Positions 7,173 to 36,950 of a DNA stretch of 37,706 nucleotides are shown here, piece after piece; within the stretch, counting starts at the first letter, position 1; every line of letters begins with the position of its first letter. The DNA comes from Campylobacteraceae bacterium (GTDB lineage Bacteria; Campylobacterota; Campylobacteria; Campylobacterales; Sulfurovaceae), in NCBI GenBank assembly GCA_027014605.1, contig JALWDJ010000043.1:1-37706 (forward strand), written 5' to 3'. The position numbers were made by a program, and so were the translations under genes. Below the pieces are notes generated by a model. The model ran no database searches and was not told the DNA's origin. It saw nothing but the letters and a program-made list of their open reading frames with translations.

Positions 7173-7200
7173 ACTATACTAAAAAAGATAAAGAGTTATT

Positions 7201-9073: not shown

Positions 9074-9140
9074 TACTTACCTTTTTAATTTATTATTGCT
9101 ATTTTAACATATTTAGCTCAAATATTCTTTATGTTAAAAT

Positions 9141-9174: not shown

Positions 9175-9233
9175 AAGTCTTAAATATATTGTGTTTTATT
9201 ATGTTTCGCTTATGTAAATCTTTTAGTTATTCT

Positions 9234-9274
9234 AATTAATATTAAATTAATATTAAAGAAGTAGTATATATAAT
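9234..9274 (+). promoter_or_regulatory. 11-bp tandem repeat followed by a -10 box
   Basis: AATTAATATTA occurs twice head to tail at 9234-9244 and 9245-9255, each copy containing the palindrome TTAATATTAA with its neighbour. TATAAT follows at 9269-9274. The repeats therefore occupy the -35 region of the presumed promoter for the gene at 9308, a common place for an operator. A short leader with AAGGA at 9296-9300 leads to the ATG. Confidence 0.5.
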
Positions 9275-9307
9275 ACCCCCATTAAAGAAAAATTTAAGGA
9301 TTTTATT

Positions 9308-9784: not shown

Positions 9785-9785
9785 T

Positions 9786-13295: not shown

Positions 13296-13324
13296 TATTA
13301 ATCCTTGAACTGTTTAGTATTCGT

Positions 13325-13330
13325 ATTCTA
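13325..13330 (-). promoter_or_regulatory. -10 box for metH
   Basis: TAGAAT reads leftward at 13330-13325, about 30 bases upstream of the metH TTG codon. The 159-base divergent metH-rpoD gap (to the rpoD start chosen here) contains this and the rpoD -10 box, with nothing resembling a structured riboswitch. Confidence 0.4.
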
Positions 13331-13415
13331 ACAAAAATATTTTTAGTTTATAACTTTAGATACAAGTAAAAATAAAGATTTTTTTAGATATAATTCATTC
13401 CTAAAAATCGTGCTG

Positions 13416-13421
13416 TATAAT
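13416..13421 (+). promoter_or_regulatory. -10 box for rpoD
   Basis: A consensus TATAAT lies at 13416-13421, predicting transcription from about 13428. The AAGGAG site at 13443-13448 then follows, and the TTG start is at 13455. This box lies inside the upstream extension that would be coding if the GTG at 13410 were used, which argues against that longer start. Confidence 0.55.
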
Positions 13422-13454
13422 ATAACCTACTACCAATATAACAAGGAGTCGCTT

Positions 13455-15317
13455 TTGGCTACCAAAGATATCAATAAGAGAATAGATGAAATTTTTGATA
13501 CGAGTAAAAAGGGGGATATTCTAACTTTTGAGGATATTGCCAAAGAGTTTGATAGACAACCAACACTTGTACAATCAAGAAGAATTTTAAAGCTATCTAA
13601 AAAAAAGAAGATTAGAGTTGTCTCTTCATCTGAATATGCAAAATATCTTTTTGAAAAAGAGGAAAAGAGAATTGCATTAGCAAGAAAAAATGCCGCTAAT
13701 AGTAGTGATGAAGAGTTTGATTTTTTAAAAGAGAAGGAGTTACTAGAGTGGAGTAGGTCTGATAGTCCTGTTAGAATGTATCTAAGAGAGATGGGTAAAA
13801 TTCCTCTTTTAACTAAAGAGGAGGAGGTCTATTTAAGTCGTGAGATTGAAGCTGGTGAAGATATTATATTAGATGCTATCTGTTCTGTTCCATATCTTAT
13901 TGACTATATTCTTAATTATAAAGAACCTCTTTTAAATCGTGAGAGAAGAGTTAAAGAGCTTTTTAGAAGTTTTGAAGATGAAAAAGATGACCCCGAAGAT
14001 GAAAAAGATAGCAGTGATGATAATTTAGACTCAAATGAAATTAAAAAACCTTTAAAAAAGGTAGATAAGAGAGTAAAACAGGTTGTTGATAGCTTTAAGG
14101 CACTTGCAAAAGCTAAAAAAGAGTGGTTAAAGAGTCGTGAAGAATTAGATAGCTTACTTGAAAAAGAGGATATAACAGAAGATAAGCTAATGCATGAAAA
14201 TATGAAAGTTGCATTTAAAAAACAGCTTTTAAAACAATCTTTAATTAACTTAGGTCCAACATCTAAACTTATTAATGAGCTAGTAAAAGCTATGGAGACA
14301 GCTCTAAGAAGTGATGATGGATTTGAAAAAGAGTTAAAGAGATTGGAGTATAAGCTTCCTCTATTTAATGAGACTCTAAGAGAAAATCATAGAAAAATCT
14401 TAGATAATATATTAGATATGGATAAAGATGATATAATTGATGCAGTACCTGAAACTACTATGGTTAGTACTTATGTTGAGATTAAAAAACTTTTTGAAAC
14501 AAGAGAGGCTAGTAAAGATAGTTTTAACCTTGACCCTGAAAAATTAGCTGAAATATTAGGTCAAATTAGAAGAGGTAAAGCAAAGAGTGAAAAAGCAAAG
14601 ACTAGAATGGCTAAATCAAATCTAAGACTTGTTGTATCTATTGCTAAACGATATACTAATCGTGGTTTACCATTTTTAGACCTAATTCAAGAGGGAAATA
14701 TAGGTTTAATGAAAGCTGTTGATAAGTTTGAGTATCAAAAAGGGTATAAGTTTTCCACTTATGCTACATGGTGGATACGACAAGCAATATCAAGAGCAAT
14801 CGCAGACCAAGCAAGAACTATTAGAATACCAATTCATATGATAGAGACTATTAATAGAATTAATAAAATTATTAGAAAAAATCTTCAAGAGTCAGGAAAA
14901 GAGCCAGATTTAGATACTATTGCTAAAGAGGTTGGCCTTTCTGTTGATAAGGTTAAAAATGTTATTAAAATAACAAAAGAGCCTGTAAGTTTAGAGACTC
15001 CTGTCGGAGATGAAGATGATGGAAGATTTGGAGATTTTATTGAAGATAAATCAACAGTTAGTCCATCTGATGCTGTACTTAAAGATGACCTTAATAATCA
15101 GATTGATGAGGTTTTAGACCAACTAAATGAGAGAGAGAAAGCTGTCATTAGAATGCGTTTTGGACTACTTGAAGATGAAAGTGATAGAACACTTGAAGAG
15201 ATAGGAAAAGAGCTTAATGTAACAAGAGAGAGAGTAAGGCAGATAGAGTCATCTGCAATTAAAAAGCTTAAACATCCAAGAGTTGGACGAAAACTTAAAA
15301 ATTATATAGAGGGGTAA
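13455..15317 (+). CDS. rpoD: Primary sigma factor RpoD (sigma-70)
   Basis: This is the housekeeping sigma factor that directs RNA polymerase to -10/-35 promoters. Region 1.2 is seen at [22 protein letters not shown] long acidic/lysine-rich non-conserved insert follows. Region 2 has [29 protein letters not shown] and [12 protein letters not shown]. Region 3 has [12 protein letters not shown]. Region 4 has the helix-turn-helix [20 protein letters not shown] place the start at TTG 13455 (about 620 residues) rather than the upstream GTG at 13410. AAGGAG sits 6 bases before the TTG, and a consensus -10 box lies inside the longer frame. It is transcribed alone, divergently from metH, and a hairpin overlaps its stop codon. 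Confidence 0.97.
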
Positions 15318-15333
15318 TTTCATTACCTCTTTT
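15308..15333 (+). terminator. Intrinsic terminator overlapping the rpoD stop
   Basis: GGTAAT (15313-15318), loop TTC, and ATTACC (15322-15327) form a perfect stem that can extend through AGAG/CTCT with a small bulge, and TTTT follows at 15330-15333. The rpoD stop codon is within the stem. Confidence 0.65.
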
Positions 15334-15516
15334 ACTTATAATCTTCTACTATAGACCTACTTATATATTAATATATAACAATATTAAAAATTATTATAAT
15401 AACATTTAATAACATTGATTTTTTAGCAATGTTTTGTTTTTTTCTATATTTTGATAATTTTGGCTTTTTGTGTAAAAAAAATGTAGAATTTCTTCACTAT
15501 TAAACTAATTATAGTA

Positions 15517-15570
15517 TATAATTATCATATGCAAGATATATTATTTAGATAAAATATCTTGATAAAGCAT
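15517..15570 (+). promoter_or_regulatory. -10 box and 5'-end stem-loop of the small secreted protein gene
   Basis: TATAAT at 15517-15522 predicts transcription from about 15529. Exactly there begins a hairpin: CAAGATAT (15532-15539) and ATATCTTG (15554-15561) are perfect inverted copies with a 14-base loop, and an outer pair ATGC (15529-15532) and GCAT (15567-15570) can close it. AAGGA at 15573-15577 stays outside the stem. A 5'-terminal stem-loop is a known way to protect an mRNA from decay. The remaining 200 bases back to rpoD are A-T rich and show no gene. Confidence 0.5.
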
Positions 15571-15587
15571 AAAAGGAAGCCTCAAAC

Positions 15588-15947
15588 ATGAAAATGAAAA
15601 AACTTAATTCAACACTTTTGATTGCTATGCTAAGTATATCCTCTCTATATTCCGAGCCATGTAAAAATTGTGTAGCTACTATTTTAAAGTCACCAGAACA
15701 TAAGACTCTTGCTCCTAAATTTAAAGCTATAAAGAAGAGTCAAGATGATAGTTCCAAACAATATACTAATGATGGTTTAATAGCATTAGATGATAATGAA
15801 GATAATTCGATAGTAATTACATTAGATAATATAGAGAGTAATATCTCTTCAAATAATAGTGACACTAAAAAGTTATATGCATGTAGTGATGATATGGCAA
15901 AGACTTTAATTTGTGATGATGTAACTAAAGTTTGCGAATGTGTATAA
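15588..15947 (+). CDS. Small secreted cysteine-containing protein, unknown function
   Basis: I do not recognise this 119-residue product. It starts with a clear signal peptide (MKMKKL, then a hydrophobic run to about residue 20, likely cleavage after LYS at residue 22). The mature part has six cysteines in two clusters: C25-K-N-C28 at the extreme N-terminus, and C99, C109, C116, C118 at the C-terminus. The middle is acidic and Asn/Ser rich, looking disordered. The even cysteine number and CxxC/CxC spacing suggest disulfides, metal binding or a thiol partner in the periplasm. The ATG follows AAGGA by 10 bases. The gene is monocistronic, with its own -10 box, a 5' hairpin and a terminator before convergent purL. 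Confidence 0.75.
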   Translation: MKMKKLNSTLLIAMLSISSLYSEPCKNCVATILKSPEHKTLAPKFKAIKKSQDDSSKQYTNDGLIALDDNEDNSIVITLDNIESNISSNNSDTKKLYACSDDMAKTLICDDVTKVCECV

Positions 15948-15979
15948 GAAATCCTTATTTGGGGGAGGGTTTCTATTTT
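15947..15979 (+). terminator. Intrinsic terminator between the small secreted gene and purL
   Basis: AGAAATCC (15947-15954) pairs with GGGTTTCT (15967-15974) through eight pairs including one G-T wobble, with a 12-base loop, and ATTTTT follows. It ends rightward transcription. The minus strand lacks a T run, so it should not stop purL transcripts efficiently. Confidence 0.65.
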
Positions 15980-15983
15980 TATA

Positions 15984-18215
15984 TTAAACATCTTGTTCTA
16001 TTACTTTCTTAAAACTATTAAAGTATATATCTTTTAATTTCTTTAAATCCATATCAATATCATTTAACTTAAATATATTTCCACCAACTTTACCAATAAT
16101 ATCAACTTTTAATCCAAGCTCTCTTGCCATGTCTATAACTGTTTCTAAACTTTCTTTACTATTAACCTCTAAAATTGCTCTACTTTGAGTTTCACTAAAT
16201 ATAGCTCTCTTATCTTCTACTCTAACTCCAGCAACTACTCCAAGTCCTGAAACTGCCGACATTTTTGCTAAGGTAATAGCAAGTCCACCTAAGTTTAAAT
16301 CTTTAGCTGAACAGAGTAACCCTTTTCTGTTTGCATTAATCACAAGCTCCCATAGTCTAAGTTCTTTGTTATAGTCTATATCTGAAATCTCTCCTGTTGT
16401 CTCATTAAATAGCTCTTTTATATAGAGTGAACCACCAAAATCCATATTGGTCTCTCCAATTAACAGAAGATGATTTTCTGCATATTGAAAATATGAAGGA
16501 AGAACTGATTTTTGATTATCATTAACACCAACCATTGCAATAGCAGGTGTTGGAAAAACAGATACCCCATTTGTTTCATTATATAGAGATACATTTCCAC
16601 TTACAACAGGAGTATTAAGTTTACTACAAGCCTCCTTTATCCCTTCGCAAGATTTTGCAAACTGCCACATAACTTCAGGATTTTCAGGATTACCGAAATT
16701 TAAACAATCTGTAATTGCTAAAGGTCTAGCCCCACTCATAGCCACATTTCTACCACTCTCCATAACAGCTAAAGCACTCCCCTTTTTAGGGTCAATATAG
16801 CAGTATCTAGGGTTGCAATCACTACTCATTGCTAAAGCTTTTCCATTCTCTTTTACTCTAATGCAACTTGCATCAAGGCTTCCAGGGTGTTTTATTGTAT
16901 TTGTCTGTACCATAGAGTCATACTGCTCATATATCCAACGCTTATCAACAACTTCCATAGATGATATAAGTTTTTCAAATGCCTCTTGATTATCTATTTT
17001 TGGATAGCTATCTATATTTTTATCTTTTATCTTATCTAAATACTTAGGTTTTGATATAGGTCTATCTAAGATAGGTGCTTCCTCGCTAACAGGTGCTATT
17101 GGCATATCACACACTTTCTCTCCATGCCAAAATAGCTCCATTCTACCACTATCAGTCACCTCTCCAATAGTTGCTACATCTAAATCCCACTTTTTAAATA
17201 TCTCAATAACCTCATCTTCTCTCCCCTTTTTAACACATATCAACATTCTCTCTTGAGATTCGCTTAACATAAAGTCATAAGGAGTCATTCCCTCTTCTCT
17301 AGCAGGAACTTTATCTAAATCCATTCTCATACCAGCACCACTCTTTCCTGCCATCTCAAAAGATGATGAGGTAAGCCCTGCAGCACCCATATCTTGAATA
17401 CCAATAACTATATCTTTTTTACTCTTAAATAACTCCAGACAAGCCTCTAATAGTAGTTTCTCTGTAAATGGGTCACCAACTTGAACAGTAGGTCTTAGAG
17501 ATTTGCTCTCTTCGGTAAAGCTATCACTACTCATAACAGCTCCACCCAATCCATCTCTACCTGTTTTAGAACCTACATACATAACAGAGTTTCCAATCCC
17601 CTCAGCAACACCTAAAAATATCTCATCACTCTTTACCAAACCTAAAGAGAAGGCATTTACTAATATATTTCCATTATAGCTCTCATCAAAACTAACCTCT
17701 CCACCAATTGTAGGAACTCCCATACAGTTACCATAATCACCAATCCCCTCAACAACACCCTTTACAAGATGTCTTTGGTATTTTGATATTTTATCTCTAT
17801 CTGTTATATTTCCAAATCTTAGAGCATTCATATTTGCAACAGGTCTAGCCCCCATTGTAAATATATCTCTAAGTATCCCTCCAACACCAGTAGCTGCACC
17901 TTGATATGGCTCAATAAAACTTGGGTGGTTGTGTGACTCCATCTTAAATACACCTGCCATTCCACCACCAATATCAATAATACCAGCATTCTCTCCCGGC
18001 CCTTGAATAACCCATGGTGCTTTAGTAGGAAAACCATTAAGATATTTTTTACTAGATTTATATGAGCAGTGTTCAGACCACATAGCTGAAAATATTCCAA
18101 GCTCAACAATATTTGGCTCTCTTCCATCAAGTATTTCTAATATATGTTCATACTCTTGATAACTAAGCTTATGTGATTTTAATATTTCATCTAAGTTTTC
18201 TAATGGTTTTGACAT
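15984..18215 (-). CDS. purL: Phosphoribosylformylglycinamidine synthase, PurL subunit
   Basis: This is the ATP-dependent FGAM synthase of de novo purine synthesis. It receives ammonia from a separate glutaminase subunit (PurQ) with PurS. At 743 residues it is the small bacterial type, not the 1300-residue fused type. Key stretches are [17 protein letters not shown] at the start, [23 protein letters not shown] with H95 and H97, [15 protein letters not shown] and [12 protein letters not shown]. The ATG at 18215 is preceded by AGGAAC on the minus strand. purQ and purS are not in the window. The gene stands between a convergent small secreted protein gene and the codirectional MBL hydrolase 96 bases upstream. 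Confidence 0.97.
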
Positions 18216-18311
18216 TATTTTAGTTCCTAATGTTATAGAGATTTTAAGTGCGTTATTTTATCAAAAACTATTAAATCTATCTTTAAATCAGAGAAATTTA
18301 ATCCTAAATAA

Positions 18312-18920
18312 CTAACTATTTTTGATATATTCAATCCATTGATTAAAAAATCTCTGCTCTCTTTTTAGAGTTGTACTTACTCCATGACCTGTATATAGAG
18401 TAAAATCCTCTTCTATTTTCATAGCTTTTTTTAAGCTTTTTATCATCTCATCTCCATTAGAGTATGGAAAATCCCATCTTCCAATAGAACCATTAAATAT
18501 AAAATCTCCACTTAACCATATATCATCAATCTCTATAATACTATTTGCTGGAGTATGCCCTGCAAATAGCCTATATTTAAACTTAACCCCATCTATACTA
18601 AACTCCTTATCACCATCAACGAATACATCAGGTTCGCTCGTAGGTGTTCCTTGATTAAATGGGTCATTTTGTAACATAAAAGCGTCGCCCTTAGGAACAT
18701 ATAGTGGAACTTTTAGCTCTCTTTGTAACTCTGCGTTACTCCATACATGGTCAAAGTGACCATGTGTATTTAATATAGCAATAGGATTTCTTATATTATC
18801 CAATACCCATCTAGTAGCTCCAACTCCAGGGTCGATTATAAGGTCTCTATTTTTAATAGTTACAATATAACAGTTAGTTTGATAAGCACCCATTGGTTGC
18901 ATTTTTATTTCAATCATCAT
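18312..18920 (-). CDS. MBL-fold metallo-hydrolase (glyoxalase II-like)
   Basis: This is a cytoplasmic metal-dependent hydrolase of the metallo-beta-lactamase fold, 202 residues. The metal motif H53-G-H55-F-D57-H58 is intact. The later ligands lie in FAGHTPANS, WLSGDFIFNGSIGR and YTGHG. The short length and SIGRWDFPYSN segment resemble the glyoxalase II-like proteins common in bacteria, which hydrolyse S-acylglutathione-like or other thioesters. The true substrate is unknown. AGHTPANS replaces the usual TPGHTPGS, a modest change. Two tandem ATG codons begin the frame; AAAGG lies about 9 bases upstream. It could be read through into purL, 96 bases downstream on the same strand. Confidence 0.85.
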   Translation of the reverse strand: MMIEIKMQPMGAYQTNCYIVTIKNRDLIIDPGVGATRWVLDNIRNPIAILNTHGHFDHVWSNAELQRELKVPLYVPKGDAFMLQNDPFNQGTPTSEPDVFVDGDKEFSIDGVKFKYRLFAGHTPANSIIEIDDIWLSGDFIFNGSIGRWDFPYSNGDEMIKSLKKAMKIEEDFTLYTGHGVSTTLKREQRFFNQWIEYIKNS

Positions 18921-19284
18921 TAGATAACCTTTTATAATATTTTGGATATTGTAGCTAAATTATCTAATATTTATTATGATAAAAAACTTTATAATAATTT
19001 ATTAATTTAAAATCTATTAAAAAGTATAAGTTGACTATGGCTATTATCTACATATCAATGTTTGTATTAATCTCAATATGAACTCTTAAAATATAATTTC
19101 TATAAATATAGATAAAATAGCTAATTTTTACTAAAGTTTTATAGTAAAATGTGAATTTTTAATACCTTTTTATAAATAACATAAAAAAATAGTATAAAAT
19201 ACCTATTGTTTACAATTAAATTTAATATTATTCATTGTATAATATCAAAGTGCAAGATAAAATATTAAAATAAAGAGAAAAAAA
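18921..19284. other. 364-base gene-free divergent region
   Basis: This very A-T-rich gap separates the leftward MBL gene from the rightward DegT-family gene. Four things can be seen. A hairpin TTTTACTA (19126-19133) and TAGTAAAA (19142-19149) has an 8-base loop, with TTTTT at about 19156-19160. A TATAAT at 19092-19097 lies just upstream of it. A 5-bp dyad ATTGT-TT-ACAAT is at 19205-19216. A -10 box is at 19238-19243, embedded in a 7-bp inverted repeat. The only open frame is a 14-codon hydrophobic one at 19037 without a ribosome-binding site, which I do not call. Confidence 0.5.
19205..19245 (+). promoter_or_regulatory. Promoter of the DegT-lpxK-lptB operon
   Basis: TATAAT at 19238-19243 is a consensus -10 box about 45 bases before the ATG at 19285. 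It overlaps the right arm of an inverted repeat, ATATTAT (19225-19231) and ATAATAT (19239-19245). Upstream, ATTGTTTACAAT at 19205-19216 is a 5-bp dyad with a 2-base centre. The overlap of dyad and -10 box is suitable for repression, but A-T richness makes chance dyads likely. Confidence 0.45.
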
Positions 19285-26293: not shown

Positions 26294-27241
26294 ATGAATA
26301 ATAAGATAGATAGTATAAAAAAAGAGGTCAAAAAGATTATTGTAGGACAAGAGGAGTTAATTGATTCTCTTCTTGTTGGACTTATTGCAGATGGACATAT
26401 CTTAGTTGAGGGTGTCCCAGGACTTGCAAAAACAACTGCTATTAATGCAATCTCGAAAGCTTTAGGAGTTAATTTTAAAAGAGTTCAATTTACTCCTGAT
26501 TTATTGCCAAGTGATGTAACAGGAACAGAGATATATAACCCTAAAGATGGAGAGTTTAGCATAAAAAAAGGTCCTATCTTTACAAATTTACTATTAGCAG
26601 ATGAGATAAATAGAGCTCCTGCTAAAGTACAATCAGCACTTCTTGAAGTTATGCAAGAGAGACAGGTAACAATTGGAGATAGAACTTTTAAGATTGATGA
26701 ACCTTTTCTAGTAATGGCTACAGAAAATCCAGTTGAACAGGAGGGGACATATAGACTTCCAGAAGCCCAACTAGATAGATTTATGTTAAAGGTCTTAGTA
26801 GGATACAATACTCTACAAGAGGAGTTAGAGATTGTAAATAGAGTAGCAATTAGTGGATTTGAAAAGGTAGAAGCTGTTGCATCTATTGATGATTTAGAAA
26901 AAATAAAAGAGGATTTCAAAAAAATACATGTAGATGATGCTATAAAAGAATATATGATAAAGATTATATTTGCTACAAGAAATCCAAAAGAGTATGGGGT
27001 AGATGAGGTAGATGACTATATAAGTTTTGGAGCAAGTCCAAGAGCCTCTATAGATTTATACAAAGCTAGTTGTGCTATTGCCTTAATTCGTGGAAATGAT
27101 TTTGTAACACCATTAGATATTAGCTATATAGCAATTAGTGTACTTAGACATAGAGTTATCCTAAACTATAAGGCACAAGCAAAAAATATTAAGACAGAAG
27201 ATATTATTCAAAAAATTCTTGAAAATATAGATACACCATAA
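26294..27241 (+). CDS. MoxR-family AAA+ ATPase
   Basis: This is a cytoplasmic AAA+ chaperone-like ATPase that works with VWA-domain proteins. Walker A is G40-V-P-G-L-A-K46-T47. Walker B is LLLADEINRAP (D103, E104). Sensor 1 lies in VMATENPVEQEGTY, and the sensor 2 region is near FGASPRASIDL, both typical of MoxR. The length is 315. The ATG lies 13 bases after AAGG, and a TGA two codons upstream excludes a longer start. It leads a seven-gene operon (MoxR, DUF58, a small membrane protein, two VWA proteins, a TPR protein and BatD), the standard Bat arrangement. Confidence 0.93.
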   Translation: MNNKIDSIKKEVKKIIVGQEELIDSLLVGLIADGHILVEGVPGLAKTTAINAISKALGVNFKRVQFTPDLLPSDVTGTEIYNPKDGEFSIKKGPIFTNLLLADEINRAPAKVQSALLEVMQERQVTIGDRTFKIDEPFLVMATENPVEQEGTYRLPEAQLDRFMLKVLVGYNTLQEELEIVNRVAISGFEKVEAVASIDDLEKIKEDFKKIHVDDAIKEYMIKIIFATRNPKEYGVDEVDDYISFGASPRASIDLYKASCAIALIRGNDFVTPLDISYIAISVLRHRVILNYKAQAKNIKTEDIIQKILENIDTP

Positions 27242-27253
27242 TAGGAAGTTCTT

Positions 27254-28087
27254 ATGCAACAGGTAGCAAAAGAGATACTCCTTAGAGCTAAAAAAGATGT
27301 ATTCTCTGGAAATCTAGGAAATTATCTAACCACATTTAAGGGTGATGGATTAGATTTTAGAGAGATTAGAGATTATGAGTATGGTGATGATATTCGTAAA
27401 ATTAATTGGAAGGCAACAGCTAAGAGTAATACTCTAAAGACAAATGTATTTAATGAAGAGAGAGAACTAAATATAGTTATTGTATTTATGCTTAGTGGAA
27501 CACTCCATTTTGGTTCGGTAAAATTAAAACAAGAGGTTGTTACAGAGATTATGGCACTCTTAGCTTTCTCTTCAATAAAGAGTGATAATCGTCTTCAAAG
27601 TATATTTTTTGAAAAAAAATTAGAGAAGTTTTTTGAACCGACTAAAAATGATGCTATTATATATCAACTAGTTGATAGTGCCATAGAGTTTGATACCTTA
27701 GAGAGAGAGTTTGATTATGGAGAATTTTGCAATTTTGTAAATGGAGTTTTAAAACAGAAATCTCTTATATTTATGGTTGGAGACTTCTATGGAGATGTAG
27801 ATTTAAGTGAGATAGCTCATAAGAATGAGGTCTATGCCATAATCGTTAGAGATAGATTAGAAGAAAATCCTATTTTAACTGGAGAGTTTGAGTTAATTGA
27901 CCCAAATAGTCTAAATGCAGAAGATATAACTCTAAATAGAGAAATAGCAGAGGAGTACAGAAAGATAGTAGAGAAGAGAGATAGAGAGATGTATGAGCAT
28001 TTCTTACAACATCAAATAGCTTATGGAAAGATATATACTAATGATGATATATATATTAGATTATCTGAAATCATAAAAGGTTCATAA
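27254..28087 (+). CDS. DUF58 protein of the Bat operon
   Basis: This 277-residue protein carries the DUF58 signature: GDGLDFREIRDYEYGDDIRKINWKATA, in which the charged and Trp residues are conserved. DUF58 proteins are degenerate VWA-like proteins found next to MoxR ATPases; the biochemical role is not known. No signal peptide or membrane segment is visible, so it should be cytoplasmic. It starts 12 bases after the MoxR gene, with AGGAAG upstream, and its stop overlaps the next start as TAATG. Confidence 0.9.
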   Translation: MQQVAKEILLRAKKDVFSGNLGNYLTTFKGDGLDFREIRDYEYGDDIRKINWKATAKSNTLKTNVFNEERELNIVIVFMLSGTLHFGSVKLKQEVVTEIMALLAFSSIKSDNRLQSIFFEKKLEKFFEPTKNDAIIYQLVDSAIEFDTLEREFDYGEFCNFVNGVLKQKSLIFMVGDFYGDVDLSEIAHKNEVYAIIVRDRLEENPILTGEFELIDPNSLNAEDITLNREIAEEYRKIVEKRDREMYEHFLQHQIAYGKIYTNDDIYIRLSEIIKGS

Positions 28088-28464
28088 TGGAGCAGTTAAA
28101 AGATATAAAAGATATAGTTGAAGTTCCTGAATACAGTTTTGAGATACTTTTAACAATAATTATCTTAACTTTAACTATTTTAGCAGTAGCTATATACCTT
28201 TATAAAAATAGAAGAAAAAGAAGAAAAAAATTATCCAGAAAAGAGATAGCACTAAATAGTTTAAAATCAATAGATTATACAAATTCAAAAGATGTAGCAT
28301 ATAGATTTACTCTTGATGGTGCAGTTTTAATAGATAAGGAGCATCAAAATGTATTTGATAATCTTGTAGAGGAACTTGAGAGATATAAATATAAAAAAGA
28401 TGTTCCACCACTAGATAAGAGTTTAGAGCATAGAGTAAAAGAGTTTATAAAGGAGCTTAAATGA
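28087..28464 (+). CDS. Small single-pass membrane protein of the Bat operon
   Basis: This 125-residue protein has one membrane helix at about residues 20-40 (FEILLTIIILTLTILAVAIYLY), followed at once by a very basic stretch (KNRRKRRKKLSRKE), which predicts a cytoplasmic C-terminal domain. Position and layout match the small DUF4381-type proteins that sit between DUF58 and the first VWA gene in many Bat operons, but the family match is by context. It overlaps DUF58 by one base and the BatA-like gene by ATGA. Confidence 0.75.
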   Translation: MEQLKDIKDIVEVPEYSFEILLTIIILTLTILAVAIYLYKNRRKRRKKLSRKEIALNSLKSIDYTNSKDVAYRFTLDGAVLIDKEHQNVFDNLVEELERYKYKKDVPPLDKSLEHRVKEFIKELK

Positions 28465-29351
28465 GTAGTATAGTATTTGAGTATCCATTAGCCTTTATTC
28501 TATTAATTATTTTTTTTATATGTAGCAAATGGTGTAAAGCAAGAGGATTAGCTATATATTTTCCAAATATATCTCTATTACAAAAAGCATCTAAAAAGAG
28601 TAGCCTATTAATAAATAGTCTAAAACTACTAATTGTTATACTATTAGTTACAGCATTAGCAAGTCCAGTAAAAGAGGATAGTGTAGTAATAAAAAATGAT
28701 AAAGGATATGAGATTTCACTTATATTAGATGCAAGTGGCTCTATGGCTGAATATAATAAGTTTGATATTGTAAAGAGTATTGTAAATAAGTTTATAGATA
28801 AGAGAAAACATGATAAGTTAGCACTTAGTATATTTGCAGATTTTGCATATGTAGCAGTCCCACTAACTTATGATAAAAAGAGTATAAAGAGACTTCTTAG
28901 TAGAATTAATGTAGGGATTGCAGGACGACAGAGAACAGCACTGTATGAAGCTCTATTTTTAAGTTCAAACCTTTTTAAAACAAGTAAAGCAAAAGAGAAG
29001 ATAGCTATTTTATTAACAGATGGAATGGATAATGCTCAAAATATCCCTTTAAGTGTAGCCATAAATACTGCTAAAAAGTATGGAATAAAAGTTTATACTA
29101 TTGGTGTTGGACAAGAGGGAATGGATTTTAATCCATCAGTTTTACAAAAGATTGCTAACGAGACAGGTGGAAAATATTTTGTAGGCGATAGCGTAGAGAG
29201 ACTTAAAGAGATTTATAACACTATTAATAAATTAGAAAAGAGTGATATAAAAGCTAATAAATATGTCAAAAAAACATATTATTTTCAATATATTCTATTT
29301 ATAGCACTCTTTGCACTAATGTTATATTTTTATTTAAAAAATAGGGAGTAG
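28461..29351 (+). CDS. batA: VWA-domain membrane protein BatA
   Basis: BatA anchors a periplasm-facing von Willebrand factor A domain to the inner membrane. Hydrophobic segments lie at about residues 8-24 and 50-70, and a C-terminal one at about 272-292. The VWA domain between them has a complete metal-ion site, D90-A-S92-G-S94 in LILDASGSM, and a later LLTDGMDNA. The Bat proteins are linked to aerotolerance, stress resistance or virulence in Bacteroides, Leptospira and Francisella; the mechanism is unknown. Length is 296. It overlaps the preceding gene by 4 bases and is followed 4 bases later by batB. Confidence 0.88.
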   Translation: MSSIVFEYPLAFILLIIFFICSKWCKARGLAIYFPNISLLQKASKKSSLLINSLKLLIVILLVTALASPVKEDSVVIKNDKGYEISLILDASGSMAEYNKFDIVKSIVNKFIDKRKHDKLALSIFADFAYVAVPLTYDKKSIKRLLSRINVGIAGRQRTALYEALFLSSNLFKTSKAKEKIAILLTDGMDNAQNIPLSVAINTAKKYGIKVYTIGVGQEGMDFNPSVLQKIANETGGKYFVGDSVERLKEIYNTINKLEKSDIKANKYVKKTYYFQYILFIALFALMLYFYLKNRE

Positions 29352-29355
29352 AGAG

Positions 29356-30333
29356 ATGATAACATTTTATAATATTGAGATTTTATGGTTACTACTTCTA
29401 CTTATTCCACTTATATATTTTATGAGTACAAAATCTTATGAATTAGATACTATTTTTAGTAAAAGGGTATTAGATAAAATTCAGATTAAAAATAGCTCTC
29501 TATCTAAAAGAGCTAAAAATATACTACTTATATCTACAATAGCCTTAACTATTATTGCATTAGCTAGACCACAGATAGATAAGGGAGAGATAAGAGTTAA
29601 ATCAAGCTTTATTAATGTAGTGACTGCTATTGATATGAGTAAATCTATGTTTGCAAATGATGTATATCCAAATAGATTTGAATTTGCTAAAAAGAAGTTT
29701 CTTGAGTCACTAAATTATTTTAAAAAGGCAAAAATCGCACTTATTGGATTTAGCTCACAGACATTTTTAATATCTCCTTTAACGGAGGACTACTATTCAC
29801 TTAAATTTTTAGCTAAAAATATTAAAATGGATTATCTAAGTCTAAAAGGTACAGATATATTAAATCTATTAAAAAGTTCAAATGAACTATTTGGAGAGGA
29901 GAAGAGAAAAATTCTATTAATTTTTACAGATGGTGGAGATAAAAAAGATTTCTCAAAAGAGATAGATTATGCAAAAGCTCACAATATATCAATCTATATA
30001 TATAATATTGGAACAACTAAAGGTGGAGTGATAAAAGAGAAAAATGGTGTCGTAAAAGATAAGAATGGAGACATTGTAGTTGTTAAGAGAAATGATAAGA
30101 TAAAAGAGTTGGCTCTAAAGAGTAGTGGAGCTTTTATGACATACTCTCTAACTAAAGATGATATCAAACTATTAGTAGATACTATAGAGAAGAGATATAA
30201 AGCAGAGGATGAAGAGAACTCTACTATTAAAGATAGACGAGAGCTATTCTACTATCCACTACTATTAGCTATTTTACTCTTTTTCGCTACACTCTTTTCA
30301 GCTCCAAAATTTAAAAAAGGAGATAAAAAATGA
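29356..30333 (+). CDS. batB: VWA-domain membrane protein BatB
   Basis: This is the second VWA protein of the operon, 325 residues, with the same plan as BatA: membrane segments near residues 8-24 and 54-70, a VWA domain, and a C-terminal membrane helix near 297-315. The metal-ion site is D93-M-S95-K-S97 in TAIDMSKSMF, with Lys in place of the common Gly. IFTDGGDKKDF follows. A charged insert (GVIKEKNGVVKDKNGDIVVV) lies in the VWA domain before the sequence returns to the fold. It overlaps batC by ATGA. BatA and BatB are expected to form a complex with BatC in the periplasm. Confidence 0.88.
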   Translation: MITFYNIEILWLLLLLIPLIYFMSTKSYELDTIFSKRVLDKIQIKNSSLSKRAKNILLISTIALTIIALARPQIDKGEIRVKSSFINVVTAIDMSKSMFANDVYPNRFEFAKKKFLESLNYFKKAKIALIGFSSQTFLISPLTEDYYSLKFLAKNIKMDYLSLKGTDILNLLKSSNELFGEEKRKILLIFTDGGDKKDFSKEIDYAKAHNISIYIYNIGTTKGGVIKEKNGVVKDKNGDIVVVKRNDKIKELALKSSGAFMTYSLTKDDIKLLVDTIEKRYKAEDEENSTIKDRRELFYYPLLLAILLFFATLFSAPKFKKGDKK

Positions 30334-31097
30334 GATATATCATATTAACTCTACTCCTAACTATTTTTAGCTCTGCATCACTATTAGATTTTAAATATTT
30401 AGATGATGCAAAAGAGGCATATCTAAAAAAGGATTACAAAAAGGCAGAAGAGTTATATAACAAAATAGAGAATGATAATGCCAAATTTAACTTAGCAGAT
30501 ACTCTATATAGAGAGAAAAAGTATAAAGATGCGATAGATGTATATAACTCTATAGATAGCAAAGATTTAGAATTTAAAAAACTACATAATATTGGAAATA
30601 GCTATGCTAAATTAAATAAGATAGATGATGCCATTAAGAGTTATGAGGAGGCTTTGAAGATTAAAGATGATAAAGATACAAAATTTAATCTTGAGTTACT
30701 AAAGAAAAAGAAAAAACAACAAGAAAAAAAGAAAAACAAGAAAAAAGACGATAAAAAAGATAAAAACAATAAGGATAAAAAATCTAATAACCAAAAAGAG
30801 CAAAATCAAAAAAATAGAGAAAATAAAAATAGTAAAGATAAGAAATCTCAAAAAAATAAAGAAAAAGAGAATAAAGATAAAAACTCTAATAAAGAGAAAG
30901 AGAAAAAGAATGCAAAGCAAGAGAAACAGAAAGATAAAAAAAATAAAATGAAAGAAAATAATAAAACTCAACCACCAATAAGTAATATGGAAGAGAGAAA
31001 GTGGCAAAAGATGTTAAATAGTAGAGGAGTTAATACTCTAATGTTACCATTAAGTAGAGGAAAAGGAGATAATAGAGATGAAGAAAATCCTTGGTAG
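30330..31097 (+). CDS. batC: TPR protein BatC with a long lysine-rich tail
   Basis: This protein has a signal sequence (MRYIILTLLLTIFSSAS) and about three tetratricopeptide units (residues about 25-113, such as YLKKDYKKAEELYNKIE and NSYAKLNKIDDAIKSYEEAL). After these comes a run of about 90 residues made almost only of Lys, Asn, Glu, Asp and Gln (residues about 120-210), probably disordered. A short more ordinary end follows (NTLMLPLSRGKGD). BatC proteins often have such low-complexity charged stretches. It overlaps the next gene by 20 bases in another frame. The long open frame on the opposite strand here is a by-product of the AAA/AAG-rich coding. Confidence 0.85.
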   Translation: MRYIILTLLLTIFSSASLLDFKYLDDAKEAYLKKDYKKAEELYNKIENDNAKFNLADTLYREKKYKDAIDVYNSIDSKDLEFKKLHNIGNSYAKLNKIDDAIKSYEEALKIKDDKDTKFNLELLKKKKKQQEKKKNKKKDDKKDKNNKDKKSNNQKEQNQKNRENKNSKDKKSQKNKEKENKDKNSNKEKEKKNAKQEKQKDKKNKMKENNKTQPPISNMEERKWQKMLNSRGVNTLMLPLSRGKGDNRDEENPW

Positions 31098-32577
31098 TTT
31101 AATAATAATATTCTTAAGTGTAAATATATTTGCAAATGTAGATGTATCTGTTAGCTCTCCAGCAGTATATAGAGGAGATATTGTAAACTATACAATAAGT
31201 GCAGATGGAACTAATATAGATTTTCCTAAAATTAAAGAGATTGATAAATATCCAATTATAGGTACATCTTCAGCTCAATCAATAAATATAATTAATGGAA
31301 CAACAACTAGAACTATATCTAAAACATATAGCTTTAGACCAGATAAGAGTCTAACTATACCATCTTTTACTGTTAAGGCAGACGGAAAGAGCTATAAGAC
31401 TAAAGAGTTAAAGGTAGAGGTTTTAAAACCTCAAGCTAGTAAAAATGGACAAGCATTTGTTTTAGAGATGAGGTTAAATAAAAAAGAGGCATTTGTAGGA
31501 GAGCCTATAAAACTTACTGTAGCTTTTAAGAGAAAACTGAATGCACATATAGACAAACTTCAACTTAGTGAACCAAAATTAGATAACTTTTGGGTAAAAA
31601 AGGTAGATAAAGTAGAGAATGGAAATGAGGGAGAGTATATATTTGAGAAAAGATATTATCAGATATTTCCTCAAAAAGCTGGAGAATTTAAAATTCCTCC
31701 TATTGAGGCTTTAATTGGGATAGTTCAAAGTGGTAATGGAGCATTTAATGACCCATTCTTTAGCTCATTTATTCAAGACCTTGATTGGCATAAGATTTAC
31801 TCAAATGATTTAAATCTAAAAGTTCACCCACTACCTGACAATTTAGAGCTATATGGAAGCTATAAGATAGAGGCTAAAGCAGACAGAACTAAAGTTTATG
31901 CAAATAAGCCTGTAAATTTAACTATAACTATAGAAGGTGAAGGGAATATTGATGATATTAAAAAATTTAATCCAACAATAGATAGTGCTATTGTATATGC
32001 TGATGAGCCAAAAATATCTTCACAACTTGTTGGAGGGGTATATAGAGGAACTTTTATCCAAAAAATAGCAATTATTGCAGATAATAACTTTACTATTCCA
32101 TCAATGGAGCTGAAATATTTTGATAAAGATACAAAAAAGGTTAAAACTATTAAAACTAAACCGATTGATATTGAAGTTATAGGTGGGGATAAATCTATAC
32201 ATAAATCATCATCTATAGAGGTTAGTCCAAGTAGTAAAATAGAAGCTCCAAAAGTTCAAACCATTACAAAAACTAAAATAGTAAAAGTTAAAGAGAAAGC
32301 CTATATTAAATATATATTCTTAGCAGTTGGATTTATCTTAGGTGCTAGTGGAGTATTAAGTTTTTATCTTATTAAAAATAGAGTTATAAAAAGAGAGAAT
32401 GATATGGTAAAAGCAATTAAAAAAGCTAAAAACGATAGAGAGCTATTTAATACTCTATTGCCTTATGCTAAAAAAGATAAGATTATCTCTAATGCTCTAA
32501 ATAGATTAGAGGAAAATATTTATAGAAATGGTAAAAATAAAATAGATAGAGAGGAGCTAATGGAGGTTTTTGAGTAA
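31078..32577 (+). CDS. batD: BatD (oxygen tolerance) membrane protein
   Basis: This 499-residue protein begins with a signal peptide (MKKILGSLIIIFLSVNIFA). A large periplasmic part of beta-sandwich character follows, with family stretches VYRGDIVNYTIS, SYSFRPDKSLTIPSFTV-like sequence (here after SKT) and FVGEPIKLTVAFKR. One membrane helix near residues 407-431 (YIFLAVGFILGASGVLSFYL) and a short cytoplasmic tail end the protein. This is the BatD layout. The start lies within batC, overlapping by 20 bases. It ends the Bat operon; a -10 box for the next gene lies 7 bases after its stop. Confidence 0.88.
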   Translation: MKKILGSLIIIFLSVNIFANVDVSVSSPAVYRGDIVNYTISADGTNIDFPKIKEIDKYPIIGTSSAQSINIINGTTTRTISKTYSFRPDKSLTIPSFTVKADGKSYKTKELKVEVLKPQASKNGQAFVLEMRLNKKEAFVGEPIKLTVAFKRKLNAHIDKLQLSEPKLDNFWVKKVDKVENGNEGEYIFEKRYYQIFPQKAGEFKIPPIEALIGIVQSGNGAFNDPFFSSFIQDLDWHKIYSNDLNLKVHPLPDNLELYGSYKIEAKADRTKVYANKPVNLTITIEGEGNIDDIKKFNPTIDSAIVYADEPKISSQLVGGVYRGTFIQKIAIIADNNFTIPSMELKYFDKDTKKVKTIKTKPIDIEVIGGDKSIHKSSSIEVSPSSKIEAPKVQTITKTKIVKVKEKAYIKYIFLAVGFILGASGVLSFYLIKNRVIKRENDMVKAIKKAKNDRELFNTLLPYAKKDKIISNALNRLEENIYRNGKNKIDREELMEVFE

Positions 32578-32583
32578 CTTTTA

Positions 32584-32589
32584 TATAAT
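32584..32589 (+). promoter_or_regulatory. -10 box for the copper receptor gene
   Basis: TATAAT at 32584-32589 begins 7 bases after the batD stop and 31 bases before the receptor ATG at 32620. The same 42-base gap holds two TTATATAA palindromes and an AAGGGC ribosome-binding site. The receptor may thus be transcribed separately from the Bat operon, or both together and alone. Confidence 0.4.
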
Positions 32590-32619
32590 AAACTTATATT
32601 TTATATAAGGGCAATAGAA

Positions 32620-34623
32620 ATGAACAAAAAGATACTATACTTATCATTAGCTACAGTAACTTTTCTTTATGGAGATGAGAGGTTAGAGGATATTAATATT
32701 GTAGAAAAAGCTACAACTCAAATGGTGCAAGATGTTAGTAGTGAAGAGATAAAGAGTGCTGATTTAGCTGAGGTTTTAGAGAGAAATATCCCATCCGTCT
32801 CACTTATTCGAAGAAGTGGTATAGCTAATGATATTATCTTAAGAGGACAGACAAGAGATAATATTAATGTAATAGTCGATGGTACAAAGACCTATGGAGC
32901 TTGTGTAAATAGAATGGACCCCCCATCATCTCATATTGTAACACATACAGTAGATAGTATAGAGGTTACAGAAGGAGCTTTTGATGTAGAAGATTTTGGC
33001 TCACTTAGTGGAACAGTAAAGGTTAGGACTAAAAAACCAACAAAAAAGCTATCTGGAGAGATTAATGCAAATATTGGTTCATTTGGATACAGAGAGTATT
33101 CAGGAACAGTAAGTGGAGGAACAGATAGATTTAGAGCCTTAATAACCTCATCAACAGAGAGTAGTAATCAATATAGAGATGGAGATGGAGATAATTTTGC
33201 AGAACAGTTAGATAACTATACAGAGGGTAGGGGAGTAGAGCAATATAACTATAGAGATAGAAATATGAAAGCCTATGAGAAAAATAGTGTAATGGGTAAA
33301 ATATTTATAGATGTAACTGACAATCAAGAGCTAAAAGCAAGTTATACAGCAAATAGAAGTGATGATGTTCTATATCCATCTAGTAAAATGGATGCTATAT
33401 ATGATGATAGTGATATTGCAAATTTAGAGTATAGTATTAAAAATTTAGGGGATTTTTCTAAAAGATTAGATTTGCAGATATATAACTCAGAGGTAGAACA
33501 CCCAATGAGTACAGAGTATAGAGTTATTGGAAAAAAGAACTATAAGACTCATAAATTAACTACTCAAATGAGTGGATTAAAGATTAAAAACAGTGCAGAT
33601 ACCTTTACCTATGGGATAGATAGCAGTAAAAGAAATTGGGACGGAGAGTATTATATTACAAATAGAGCAAATGGAGTAGTTAAACATATTGGAAAGAGTA
33701 TTGATGATGTTGATACAAAAAATTTAGGACTATTTTTAAAATCTAAAAAAGATTTAGGTAAAGTAAAACTCTCATGGGGAGTAAGATATGATGATACCTC
33801 AATAGATACCCATTCAATAGAGAGAGATAGAGACTATAATTCATTTTCAGCAAATCTATTTGCTAAATATAAAGTTGATAAAGAGCTAAATCTTTTTGGA
33901 GGAGTAGGTAAATCAAATAGAGTGCCTGATGCAAGAGAGCTATATAATACAAAATATACAAAAGCAGATAATAAGCTAAAAAGAGTCTTAAATGGAAATC
34001 CAAATTTAGACCAGACAAAAAATTATGAGGTTGATTTAGGGTTAGAGAAATCTTTTAGTGGTGGAAAAGTAAAGGTAAAAACATTCTACTCAAAATTAGA
34101 AGATTATATATATTATAATGGTAGTAGAATGAAAAATAGCTTTGAAAATATTGATGCTCATATATACGGAGTTGAATTAAATGGAGATTATATGGTAGGT
34201 GATGATTTAACTCTAAGTGGGAAGTTGGCATATAATAGAGGTAAAAAAGATACTCAACCAACAAATCAAAAAGATAAAGATTTAGCAAATATCGCTCCAA
34301 TGAAGATTAATCTATCAGCCCAATATGATTATGATGATAGTGGAGATATAGAACTATCACTACAAAACGCTACTAAATGGAAAAATATAGATAGTGATAA
34401 TGGAGAGCAGATATTAGATGGATATACAACTCTAAATTTAAAAACAACAAGGGAGTTTGATAATGGCTTGATATTTACAGCTGGAGTTGATAATATATTA
34501 GATGAAACATATACCACTACCAATACATATAAAGATTTAATCCTAATGAGTAATAGTAGTGATACAATGCTTATTAATGAGGCAGGAAGATATTTTTATC
34601 TAAATGCAAAATATCAGTTTTAA
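32620..34623 (+). CDS. TonB-dependent outer-membrane receptor, copper type (OprC/NosA-like)
   Basis: This 667-residue protein is a TonB-gated outer-membrane porin. The signal sequence ends near LYG; a TonB-box-like EDINIVE follows; the plug domain contains DIILRGQTRDNINVIVDG and the barrel ends in aromatic NAKYQF. Two features point to copper. The plug has C95-V-N-R-M99 inside GACVNRMDPPSSHI, which matches the CxxxM-DPP motif of Pseudomonas OprC/NosA. An H294-P-M296 motif lies in a barrel loop, matching the HxM of OprC, with about 199 residues between Cys and His (180 in OprC). The gene follows the Bat operon by 42 bases and is convergent with the propeller gene. Copper uptake is inferred, not shown. 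Confidence 0.87.
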   Translation: MNKKILYLSLATVTFLYGDERLEDINIVEKATTQMVQDVSSEEIKSADLAEVLERNIPSVSLIRRSGIANDIILRGQTRDNINVIVDGTKTYGACVNRMDPPSSHIVTHTVDSIEVTEGAFDVEDFGSLSGTVKVRTKKPTKKLSGEINANIGSFGYREYSGTVSGGTDRFRALITSSTESSNQYRDGDGDNFAEQLDNYTEGRGVEQYNYRDRNMKAYEKNSVMGKIFIDVTDNQELKASYTANRSDDVLYPSSKMDAIYDDSDIANLEYSIKNLGDFSKRLDLQIYNSEVEHPMSTEYRVIGKKNYKTHKLTTQMSGLKIKNSADTFTYGIDSSKRNWDGEYYITNRANGVVKHIGKSIDDVDTKNLGLFLKSKKDLGKVKLSWGVRYDDTSIDTHSIERDRDYNSFSANLFAKYKVDKELNLFGGVGKSNRVPDARELYNTKYTKADNKLKRVLNGNPNLDQTKNYEVDLGLEKSFSGGKVKVKTFYSKLEDYIYYNGSRMKNSFENIDAHIYGVELNGDYMVGDDLTLSGKLAYNRGKKDTQPTNQKDKDLANIAPMKINLSAQYDYDDSGDIELSLQNATKWKNIDSDNGEQILDGYTTLNLKTTREFDNGLIFTAGVDNILDETYTTTNTYKDLILMSNSSDTMLINEAGRYFYLNAKYQF

Positions 34624-34625
34624 AA

Positions 34626-34650
34626 ATAAGAAGATATCTACTCTTCTTAT
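34626..34650 (-). terminator. Intrinsic terminator of the leftward propeller gene
   Basis: ATAAGAAGA (34626-34634) and TCTTCTTAT (34642-34650) are perfect 9-bp inverted copies with a 7-base loop. On the minus strand the stem is followed by TTTTTA, so it should end leftward transcription from the gene at 34647-35801, whose stop codon is in the stem. On the plus strand no T run follows, so it may only partly stop the receptor transcript. Confidence 0.65.
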
Positions 34651-35801
34651 CTATGTAGATTACCTTTAAAATCAACTTTAAGAACCCAGACATTACTATC
34701 TCTACTTCTTGAAGTCTGTTTCTCTCCAACAATTAAATATCCATCATCAGCAGTCACAATATCATATCCAACATCATCATTCTCTCCACCATAGGTTCTT
34801 GACCATACAGTTTTACCTTTAGAGTTAATTTTTAGAATATATAGCTCATTTCCCTTACGGCGAACTTCAGATTTACCAACAATTACGTATCCATCATCAG
34901 GAGCTTTTGTGATTGCATACCCCTCATCATCATACCTACCACCATAAGAGTGTCTCCATATAACTTTTCCTCTCTTATTTATCTTTACAACAAATACATC
35001 TTTATAGTTAAGTCCAAAACTATCTGTGCTTCCAACAATAATATATCCATCTTTAGTTTCAATTATATCATGTGCAGTCTCATCATCTTTCCCACCATAA
35101 GCGTGATACCATACTCTTTTACCATTTTTCTTTAAGCCTACAACATAACTATCAAAATCACCATGCCCATAAGTTTCACTTCTCCCTACCATAATATAAC
35201 CATCTTTTGTACTAATAACAGCATTACCATAATCTTCATCTTTTCCACCATAATATCCTCTCCATATTAAATCTCCATTACTATTTACTTTGATTAATAT
35301 AGGATTTATCCGTGCAGAGAAGAATTTTAGGTGTCTCTCTGTTCCTGTAATAATTAAATTATTTCCATCTGCTACAATTGAATTTCCATAATACTCATCA
35401 TTACTACCTCTATAATATGTTTTTTCCCACTTAATTTTCCCATTTTTATCAATTCTTACAAAATAGAAACTTAAATTGTCATTTCCATAACTTTTAGTAG
35501 AACCAGCAAATACAAAATCATCTTTAAATTTAGTTATAGAGTTAGCCTCATCATCATCACTACCACCATATATCTTCGACCAGATTTTATTTCCATTTTT
35601 ATCTATTTTAATAAGATATACATTATAGTTTCTGTCACTATCTTGAAAACTCTTTGTTTTCCCTGCTATTAGATAGCCATTATTAGTCTTTACAACTGCT
35701 TTAGCGATATCACTCTCTTCACCACCAAATATTTTACTAAATGTGGTTGAAGAGTAGATTATTGAAGTTAAAATTATTAAGTTTAATAAATATTTTTTCA
35801 T
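34647..35801 (-). CDS. Secreted seven-repeat protein, predicted seven-bladed beta-propeller
   Basis: After a signal peptide (MKKYLLNLIILTSIIYSS, cleavage near residue 22) the whole protein is seven repeats of about 48-54 residues. Each carries a core like YGGxxDDxxxxI, then DGYxIVGxTxSxG, then VxKIDKxGKxxWxxxYGG. The count follows the seven Gly-Gly or Arg-Gly pairs. Such repeats belong to the beta-propeller-like families of secreted proteins; I cannot name a ligand. Seven repeats in 384 residues predict one closed seven-bladed propeller with no other domain. It has no lipobox. It is monocistronic, with a clear terminator, and lies back to back with xerH, 48 bases downstream of it on the same strand. 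Confidence 0.8.
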   Translation of the reverse strand: MKKYLLNLIILTSIIYSSTTFSKIFGGEESDIAKAVVKTNNGYLIAGKTKSFQDSDRNYNVYLIKIDKNGNKIWSKIYGGSDDDEANSITKFKDDFVFAGSTKSYGNDNLSFYFVRIDKNGKIKWEKTYYRGSNDEYYGNSIVADGNNLIITGTERHLKFFSARINPILIKVNSNGDLIWRGYYGGKDEDYGNAVISTKDGYIMVGRSETYGHGDFDSYVVGLKKNGKRVWYHAYGGKDDETAHDIIETKDGYIIVGSTDSFGLNYKDVFVVKINKRGKVIWRHSYGGRYDDEGYAITKAPDDGYVIVGKSEVRRKGNELYILKINSKGKTVWSRTYGGENDDVGYDIVTADDGYLIVGEKQTSRSRDSNVWVLKVDFKGNLHR

Positions 35802-35849: not shown

Positions 35850-36950
35850 TTAATAGATATTTTTCTGCTTTTTTTTATTAAAAATAGTGTTTAATAAATT
35901 TGTTGCCTCTCTTCTTCGTTCATCTACAATATGGGTATATACTCTAGTAGTAGAGGGGTCTGCATGTCTCATCATATCTTGGACTAAGGCTAAATCTTTA
36001 ACTTTACTATATAGAAGTGTGCCGTAAGTGTGTCTAAGTAAATGAGCCCCTTCTTTATCTTTTACAATTCCACAATATCGCAATAGCTCTTTAATCTTAT
36101 GAGATACAGATGATGGATTAACTCTTTTTTGAGAATTTTGAGGAGAGTAGAATAGGAAACTACCATTTCCACTATTTAACCATAAACTATAATATGGCTC
36201 TAACGCCTCTTTGGAAACCTCAATTATAGAGTTTTTATTACCTTTTCCTACTATATTGATGAGAAGATAACCATCTTGTAGTTGAATTTTATCTCTTCTT
36301 ATATTTAAAACTTCAGATATCCTCATTCCTGTAAGTAAAATTAATCTAATAATAAGATTATAAAATAGGTATGAGCGTTTTGATACAAACTTATATTGCT
36401 TTAATCCATCTAAGAGAGTCTGAACCTCATCTTCTGTAAGATAAGATGGTATCTTATCTCCTCTATTTCCAGATAACCCTTTCCAATTCGATAGATTAAG
36501 ATGATAGATATATCCATTACCACTATTTGGACTATTTTCATTATGGTTAGATAGATAATTAAAGAAGTTTGTAATAGCATTTCTATAGTTTTTCTTAGTG
36601 GCGTTACTCATTCCTGCTGTGGTAGATGTTAAAAAATCAATAACTATCTCATCATCTATCTCTTTTAGAGAGTATAGTTTCTGTAGTAGTAGATAATCAA
36701 ATAGTTTAGATACAGGTATATAGAAAGTTTTAATCCCCTCGATTCCTGCTTTTCTAATCTCTTTTACAATAGCAGATAACTCCTCAATAGATGATGGAGA
36801 GCTATTTAGTTTAACCATAATATTTTGAATTTTAGACTGTTCTTTTACATTTCGAGAGGATAGAGTATTTACTTTATATTTAATGTATCGTGTTATCCAA
36901 AATATTAATGACTCTTCAATATTATTAGATATATCAAGTGGAAAACGCAT
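35850..36950 (-). CDS. xerH: Tyrosine recombinase XerH (chromosome dimer resolution)
   Basis: This site-specific recombinase should resolve chromosome dimers at a dif-type site with FtsK. The catalytic set is complete: R210 in LTGMRISEV, H303-L-L-R306-H, H329 in MRHADPSTT and nucleophile Y338 in VYTHI. The N-terminus (PLDISNNIEESLIFWITRYIKYK) and the 366-residue length match the single XerH of Helicobacter and Campylobacter, not the 300-residue XerC/XerD pair. The order of helices before the core-binding domain is also like XerH. No transposon or phage gene is near, so it is unlikely to be an integrase. I find no dif-like inverted site I can support in the flanks. Confidence 0.9.
   Translation of the reverse strand: MRFPLDISNNIEESLIFWITRYIKYKVNTLSSRNVKEQSKIQNIMVKLNSSPSSIEELSAIVKEIRKAGIEGIKTFYIPVSKLFDYLLLQKLYSLKEIDDEIVIDFLTSTTAGMSNATKKNYRNAITNFFNYLSNHNENSPNSGNGYIYHLNLSNWKGLSGNRGDKIPSYLTEDEVQTLLDGLKQYKFVSKRSYLFYNLIIRLILLTGMRISEVLNIRRDKIQLQDGYLLINIVGKGNKNSIIEVSKEALEPYYSLWLNSGNGSFLFYSPQNSQKRVNPSSVSHKIKELLRYCGIVKDKEGAHLLRHTYGTLLYSKVKDLALVQDMMRHADPSTTRVYTHIVDERRREATNLLNTIFNKKKQKNIY

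Follow-up and report, generated by a model that had tools for sequence, protein, structure and literature searches.

A divergent OprC-like TonB-dependent receptor of Campylobacterota, predicted to import copper and linked to nos genes in some relatives

The window, a 37,706-nucleotide stretch (contig C43) from the genome of a Campylobacteraceae bacterium (1.98 Mb, 99.99% complete), encodes a TonB-dependent receptor of 667 residues (32620–34623, forward strand) that appears from its sequence to be a divergent OprC-like copper receptor, with copper very probably its substrate. The reading that best fits the evidence is a putative general copper importer that is sometimes linked to nos genes, with N2O reductase as one likely client. 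The translation of the open reading frame contains ...GACVNRMDPPSSH...VEHPMST..., and both Pfam domains expected of the class, PF00593 (TonB_dep_Rec_b-barrel) and PF07715 (Plug), score above their cut-offs. TIGR01778, TonB-copper, scored best among the NCBIfam models (166.2 bits, E = 1.4e-48), and it matched all 30 members scanned, with a best E value of 1e-63. However, 166.2 bits is far below the curated cut-off of 472.45 bits, so that the protein falls outside the TIGR01778 equivalog and more likely belongs to a divergent OprC-like subfamily. A profile search had been proposed in an earlier note on this DNA; its expectation of a TonB-copper model at the top, rather than a siderophore or cobalamin receptor, held, while the score stayed under that model's own cut-off. 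The siderophore model TIGR01783 also matched 30 of 30 members (best E 1.8e-34). Among PDB sequences, the window protein matched only OprC of Pseudomonas aeruginosa (6fok, 6z8q and others) at E ≤ 1e-3, the best at 2.9e-22, and a 30-row profile recovered OprC at 4.1e-43, followed by PhuR at 5.9e-14.

The earlier note had recognized a copper site in two short motifs, and both are present: C95-xxx-M99 followed by DPP in the plug (32902–32916, the C95 codon at 32902–32904), and H294-P-M296 in the barrel (33499–33507). In HMMER alignments all four residues fall on the OprC ligands Cys143, Met147, His323 and Met325, bearing out the proposed equivalence; in OprC these residues form the crystallographic copper site (PMC8610252). 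M257 (33388–33390) aligns with OprC Met286, which lies in the methionine track as part of the second silver site (PMC8610252). Despite these shared positions, identity to OprC is only about 20%, and the window receptor has, after CxxxM, the DPP sequence and an invariant histidine, H105 (32932–32934), which lies six residues past M99, corresponds to a tyrosine in OprC and might be an extra ligand. Moreover, M257 is the only residue of the OprC methionine track seen to be kept; the Met-rich loop just after the OprC HxM aligns with a Met-free stretch of the window protein, and the track is therefore largely missing. NosA of Pseudomonas stutzeri is described as having the same ligand motif and keeping some of the methionine track, and the legend of the OprC alignment names only Pseudomonas, Acinetobacter and enteric species, with ZnuD for comparison (PMC8610252).

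An AlphaFold2 model built from 30 sequences (mean pLDDT 86.3, pTM 0.84) has the plug and barrel of a TonB receptor, in keeping with the Pfam domains. In a Foldseek search the first 28 rows were all OprC chains (E 5.6e-44 to 7.6e-40), and VIA-align superposed OprC with Z scores of 38.3–39.5 (2.3–2.6 Å over 585–593 residues), followed by ChuA at 36.6 and the zinc receptor ZnuD at 36.0.

The predicted ligands are conserved throughout the phylum. We aligned 100 receptors longer than 600 residues, the window protein and 99 from fetched loci; exclusion of two paralogues without the site left 98 sequences, other families of the phylum included. M99, H105, M257, H294 and M296 are each kept in 98/98 and C95 in 97/98, the lone exception being the orthologue of genome G071 (locus L099), in which glycine replaces the copper cysteine. 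A first set of 47 distinct sequences, including that of the window, had retained all six residues without exception (47/47), and of the seven histidines in the window protein H105 and H294 alone are invariant. As a control we hand-picked 20 other TonB receptors from the window's bacterial family, choosing one per genome among the strongest non-orthologous PF00593 matches (the pairs L162/L165 and L168/L169 are similar in the printed residues). None of the 20 has CxxxM anywhere or the aligned four-ligand set, and three have HxM somewhere. With the best profile, the PDB relatives (E ≤ 1e-3), the best folds and the phylum-wide ligands in agreement, the protein is probably a copper receptor of the OprC/NosA type, as the earlier note had suggested. 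In two loci, L098 (G037) and L148 (G484), the copper receptor has a nearby TonB receptor paralogue without any of the four ligands, and two tandem copies of the receptor itself occur in L150 (G293) and in G525 (C1:876175–880213).

The predicted fold by itself does not strongly separate copper receptors from those for heme or zinc, and a heme or hemoglobin receptor of the HemR/ChuA/HasR kind, in which the cysteine, methionines and histidine would have another role, has some evidence on its side. The heme models TIGR01785 and TIGR01786 come close behind TonB-copper (139.7 and 139.3 bits, E about 1e-40), TIGR01786 (hemoglobin/transferrin) matches 30/30 members (best E 2.1e-43), and the next folds behind OprC are ChuA, ShuA, HasR and PhuR together with ZnuD. 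However, the window protein does not reach the cut-off of either model (316.85 and 323.75 bits), TIGR01785 passes E 1e-10 in only 5/30 members as against 30/30 for TonB-copper, and no histidine stands between the RVPD box (434–437) and the GNPNL stretch (459–463), where heme receptors keep one. The recurrent neighbours of the gene are moreover NosL, nosZ and TonB, among profiled families that did not include heme genes, and we consider a heme receptor very unlikely. The zinc ligands of ZnuD differ from the copper-receptor set. ZnuD of Neisseria is likewise a metal-ion TonB receptor with its site in a similar place (PMC8610252), but the window protein matches the ZnuD profile only weakly (45 bits, cut-off 950). 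A copper receptor might also take chelated copper, as a chalkophore or carboxylate complex, rather than bare ions. Most of the OprC methionine track is missing here, suggesting a different route to the site, and CrtA (BfrG) of Bordetella and PA0434, copper TonB receptors tied to respiratory oxidases as this one may be, offer a precedent, since CrtA reportedly takes up Cu(II) in chelated form for heme-copper oxidases (PMC12914433). By its description, however, CrtA falls in a sequence cluster separate from OprC (PMC12914433), and the window protein keeps all four residues by which OprC directly binds ionic copper; chelated copper thus seems an improbable substrate, and import of ionic copper remains our preferred reading.

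The genome of the window contains candidate clients for such an importer. The earlier note had proposed a search for nosZ, cytochrome oxidase and copper chaperone genes, and we found nosZ (contig C42, 874 bits, cut-off 625), ccoN (711 bits) and four NosL matches. There is one TonB match, beside ExbD (identified by Pfam) and ExbB, and at E ≤ 1e-3 one PF00593 barrel and one PF07715 plug, both belonging to the receptor; the OprC-like receptor is the only TonB receptor detected in this genome. By a count made by eye, exactly one PF00593 match occurs in 17 of the 133 family genomes with a strong receptor match, nine of these 17 being at least 90% complete; that match was seen to be the receptor in some of the 17 and is presumably so in the rest. 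The sensor kinase that neighbours the receptor in relatives has only distant matches here (identity ≤ 31%). At the nosZ locus on C42 (L059), nosZ and an upstream Crp-type regulator gene are both transcribed away from the nosD cluster, which comprises nosD, NapG/NapH-like genes, ABC genes and two NosL genes.

Receptor matches at E ≤ 1e-3 were found in 140 of the 175 genomes of the window's family, seven of them only weak, and in 213 of the 397 genomes drawn across the phylum. Several other families have full-length matches, about 39–56% identical, but f2, f3 and f5 have nothing more than weak ones. One receptor locus, L045, is titled Gammaproteobacteria bacterium (nPCRbin5) and its receptor is 48% identical, which may reflect a mislabelled bin or a transfer. 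In the literature searched we found no copper receptor of Campylobacterota, nor one beside their nosZ, and the passages of PMC10092412 and PMC8267372 on copper in Nitratiruptor and Campylobacter jejuni do not mention TonB.

Unlike OprC, the receptor genes of the relatives often lie near tonB, NosL or nosZ. Neighbourhoods were scored with home-made profiles in 97 orthologues, of which 77 had 3.5 kb of sequence upstream, 77 had it downstream and 69 on both sides. On the same strand, TonB lies upstream in 29/77, and NosL and NosZ each lie downstream in 9/77; a sensor kinase is found upstream in 27/77. TonB, ExbB or ExbD lies within 3.5 kb on either side in 37/69, and in 23 of those 69 orthologues no linked gene that was scored lies nearby. 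Several genomes share the order regulator–kinase–tonB–receptor, behind which comes either nosZ, or NosL together with an ABC transporter, or something else. NosL begins only 5–102 bases behind the receptor in nine loci, suggesting a single transcript, and five of these belong to the window's genus (G142, G144, G150, G152 and G167). Further checking of the profile names confirmed NosD (TIGR04247 over its cut-off), while the NosG and NosH profiles fell to the NapG/MauM and NapH families and that of NosF to ABC ATPases generally. In locus L106 (9757–14795), the only one of its type annotated with Pfam, the receptor precedes NosL, a permease of the FtsX/MacB type, an ABC ATPase and an unknown membrane protein; the Pfam assignments rule out that the ABC proteins behind NosL are NosDFY. 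L063, L104 and L128 are arranged similarly, and by a home-made profile L106 and L128 hold an extra NosL-like protein. No nosZ match was present in the genomes of these loci (G077, G082, G144 and G060).

By match coordinates, the receptor is the gene immediately preceding nosZ, with the same orientation, in 14/175 family genomes (G034, G062–G067, G074, G078, G086, G099, G104, G109 and G121; the receptor match is partial in G034 and G086, and the nosZ match in G078). In the ten such loci that were read, about 210–390 bases separate the two reading frames, NosD follows nosZ in 10/10, and tonB directly precedes the receptor in nine (the tenth locus is truncated at the edge of its contig). In L131, where NosZ and NosD both score over their cut-offs, an 18 kb stretch (1306–18999) carries ExbB and ExbD and, about 5 kb on, tonB, receptor, nosZ and nosD, together with nos-like ferredoxin-type and ABC genes. 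Outside the family the nearest case noticed by eye was G484, with nosZ about 9 kb away. Five genomes (G069, G072, G089, G096 and G133) have two full nosZ genes on different contigs, and a third contig carries the receptor in G069, G072 and G096. In a quickly built tree of 100 receptor rows, the nosZ-adjacent state (nine rows) needs at least seven changes and is thus scattered rather than confined to one clade; the NosL-adjacent state (ten rows, one a paralogue) needs at least nine changes and the TonB/Exb-adjacent state (41 rows) at least eleven. The tree fits gain and loss of the nos linkage alike.

Presence of the receptor does not follow nosZ. Among all 175 family genomes, 47 have both genes, 86 the receptor only, 18 nosZ only and 24 neither (p = 0.46), and among the 94 that are at least 90% complete the counts are 31, 47, 10 and 6 (p = 0.11), so that strict co-occurrence was rejected. 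For ccoN, the 94 more complete genomes gave 76 with both, 2 with the receptor only, 12 with ccoN only and 4 with neither (p = 0.007), and the full 175 gave 126, 7, 31 and 11 (p = 0.0004); this test was post hoc, made after that for nosZ had failed, and its p values ignore phylogeny and missing contigs. In these counts, weak-only receptor matches were scored absent (G004, G010, G029, G076, G103, G106 and G115; E 5.6e-4 to 2.1e-9), as was nosZ where the NosZ match was weaker than E 1e-40, including G015 with fragments at E 2e-13. ccoN was scored absent in 13 genomes lacking any match and in another five whose matches were only weak (G023, G027, G031, G155 and G161), and partial ccoN in G004, G034 and G041 was scored present. 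Many of the genomes are fragmented drafts, and absences may therefore be gaps. The receptor tracks ccoN weakly. A general importer of copper for periplasmic copper enzymes, nosZ being one client that sometimes adjoins it, is the simplest reading.

A receptor dedicated to N2O reductase, the true NosA of Campylobacterota, would account for the 14/175 genomes in which it adjoins nosZ, with tonB directly in front in nine of the ten loci read, for the NosL genes downstream in others, and for the scatter of the nosZ-adjacent state on the tree. In this link by gene order, as in its ligand motif, the protein resembles NosA of P. stutzeri; the window gene, however, lies outside a nos cluster, and nosZ is absent from 47 of the 78 receptor-bearing genomes that are at least 90% complete. 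Conversely, many f3 genomes with nosZ have at most weak receptor matches, and nosZ is present without any receptor match in g7 and g8 genomes such as G041, G042, G048, G051 and G052. In one P. stutzeri strain a nosA knockout had no effect (cited in PMC8610252), and the same source notes that OprC and NosA also occur in non-denitrifiers and that NosZ maturation is not their general function; according to PMC7558416, NosA is perhaps a general import system too and is still considered a main copper route to NosZ. We therefore regard a dedicated NosA as doubtful. The link to N2O reductase that the earlier note had raised is genuine at the level of gene order, for a minority of the relatives, and is not exclusive, presence and absence giving it no backing.

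The same note had also connected the receptor with the Bat genes that precede it. MoxR, DUF58, a weak DUF4381, BatA, BatB, BatC and BatD (Pfam/NCBIfam; 26294–32577, forward strand) end 42 bases before the receptor, BatD stopping at 32577 and the receptor starting at 32620, and a search of 32300–35000 gave no terminator-like site, against 1.0 expected from shuffled sequences. The junction (32570–32625) folds weakly (z = −1.86, 11/200 shuffles as good), and promoter-like sites were fewer than in shuffles (11 vs 16.0). However, MoxR, BatA, BatB or BatD was near the receptor in none of the 77 orthologues with 3.5 kb upstream, and the nearest relative, 87% identical, has no BatD end in the 165 bases before its receptor, where 62/165 positions are identical without gaps. 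Adjacency of BatD and receptor was found in no locus examined except the window. The proposed Bat link therefore failed; a joint role of the receptor and the Bat system under copper or oxygen stress is barely credible, and we do not take the Bat genes as belonging to the copper system. Further downstream, a XerC/D-like tyrosine recombinase gene (35850–36950, reverse strand) lies between a beta-propeller-like gene and yqiA; it has no match in the 87% related locus (L003/L032), where the propeller gene and yqiA are present, and so may be an insertion.

We infer the identity of the metal, its transport and direction, the regulation and the enzyme fed, and propose that the receptor would act as an outer-membrane, TonB-energised importer of ionic copper, working like Pseudomonas OprC. 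Copper would be captured between C95 and M99 of the plug and H294 and M296 of the barrel, with M257, and perhaps H105, on its approach to the site. The single TonB, with ExbB and ExbD, would then act on the plug, allowing copper to enter the periplasm, where it would supply the cbb3 oxidase and, during N2O respiration, also N2O reductase through NosL.

Few receptors are known to take up copper across the outer membrane, and it is disputed whether NosA and OprC feed N2O reductase. The subfamily described here, spread across much of Campylobacterota below the cut-off of the copper model and linked in several genomes to nosZ, NosL and tonB, offers natural gene clusters for that question. The nosZ gene, which adjoins the receptor in some relatives, encodes a copper enzyme that breaks down nitrous oxide, a greenhouse gas. 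The subfamily also points to cells in which copper is apparently the sole task of TonB. It is possible, and we suggest it tentatively, that TonB-ExbBD serves copper alone in this organism and some relatives, and that tonB, the two-component genes, NosL, nosZ and the receptor form an exchangeable module that has repeatedly become linked to nos genes. If so, outer-membrane copper import would be a control point of N2O reduction.
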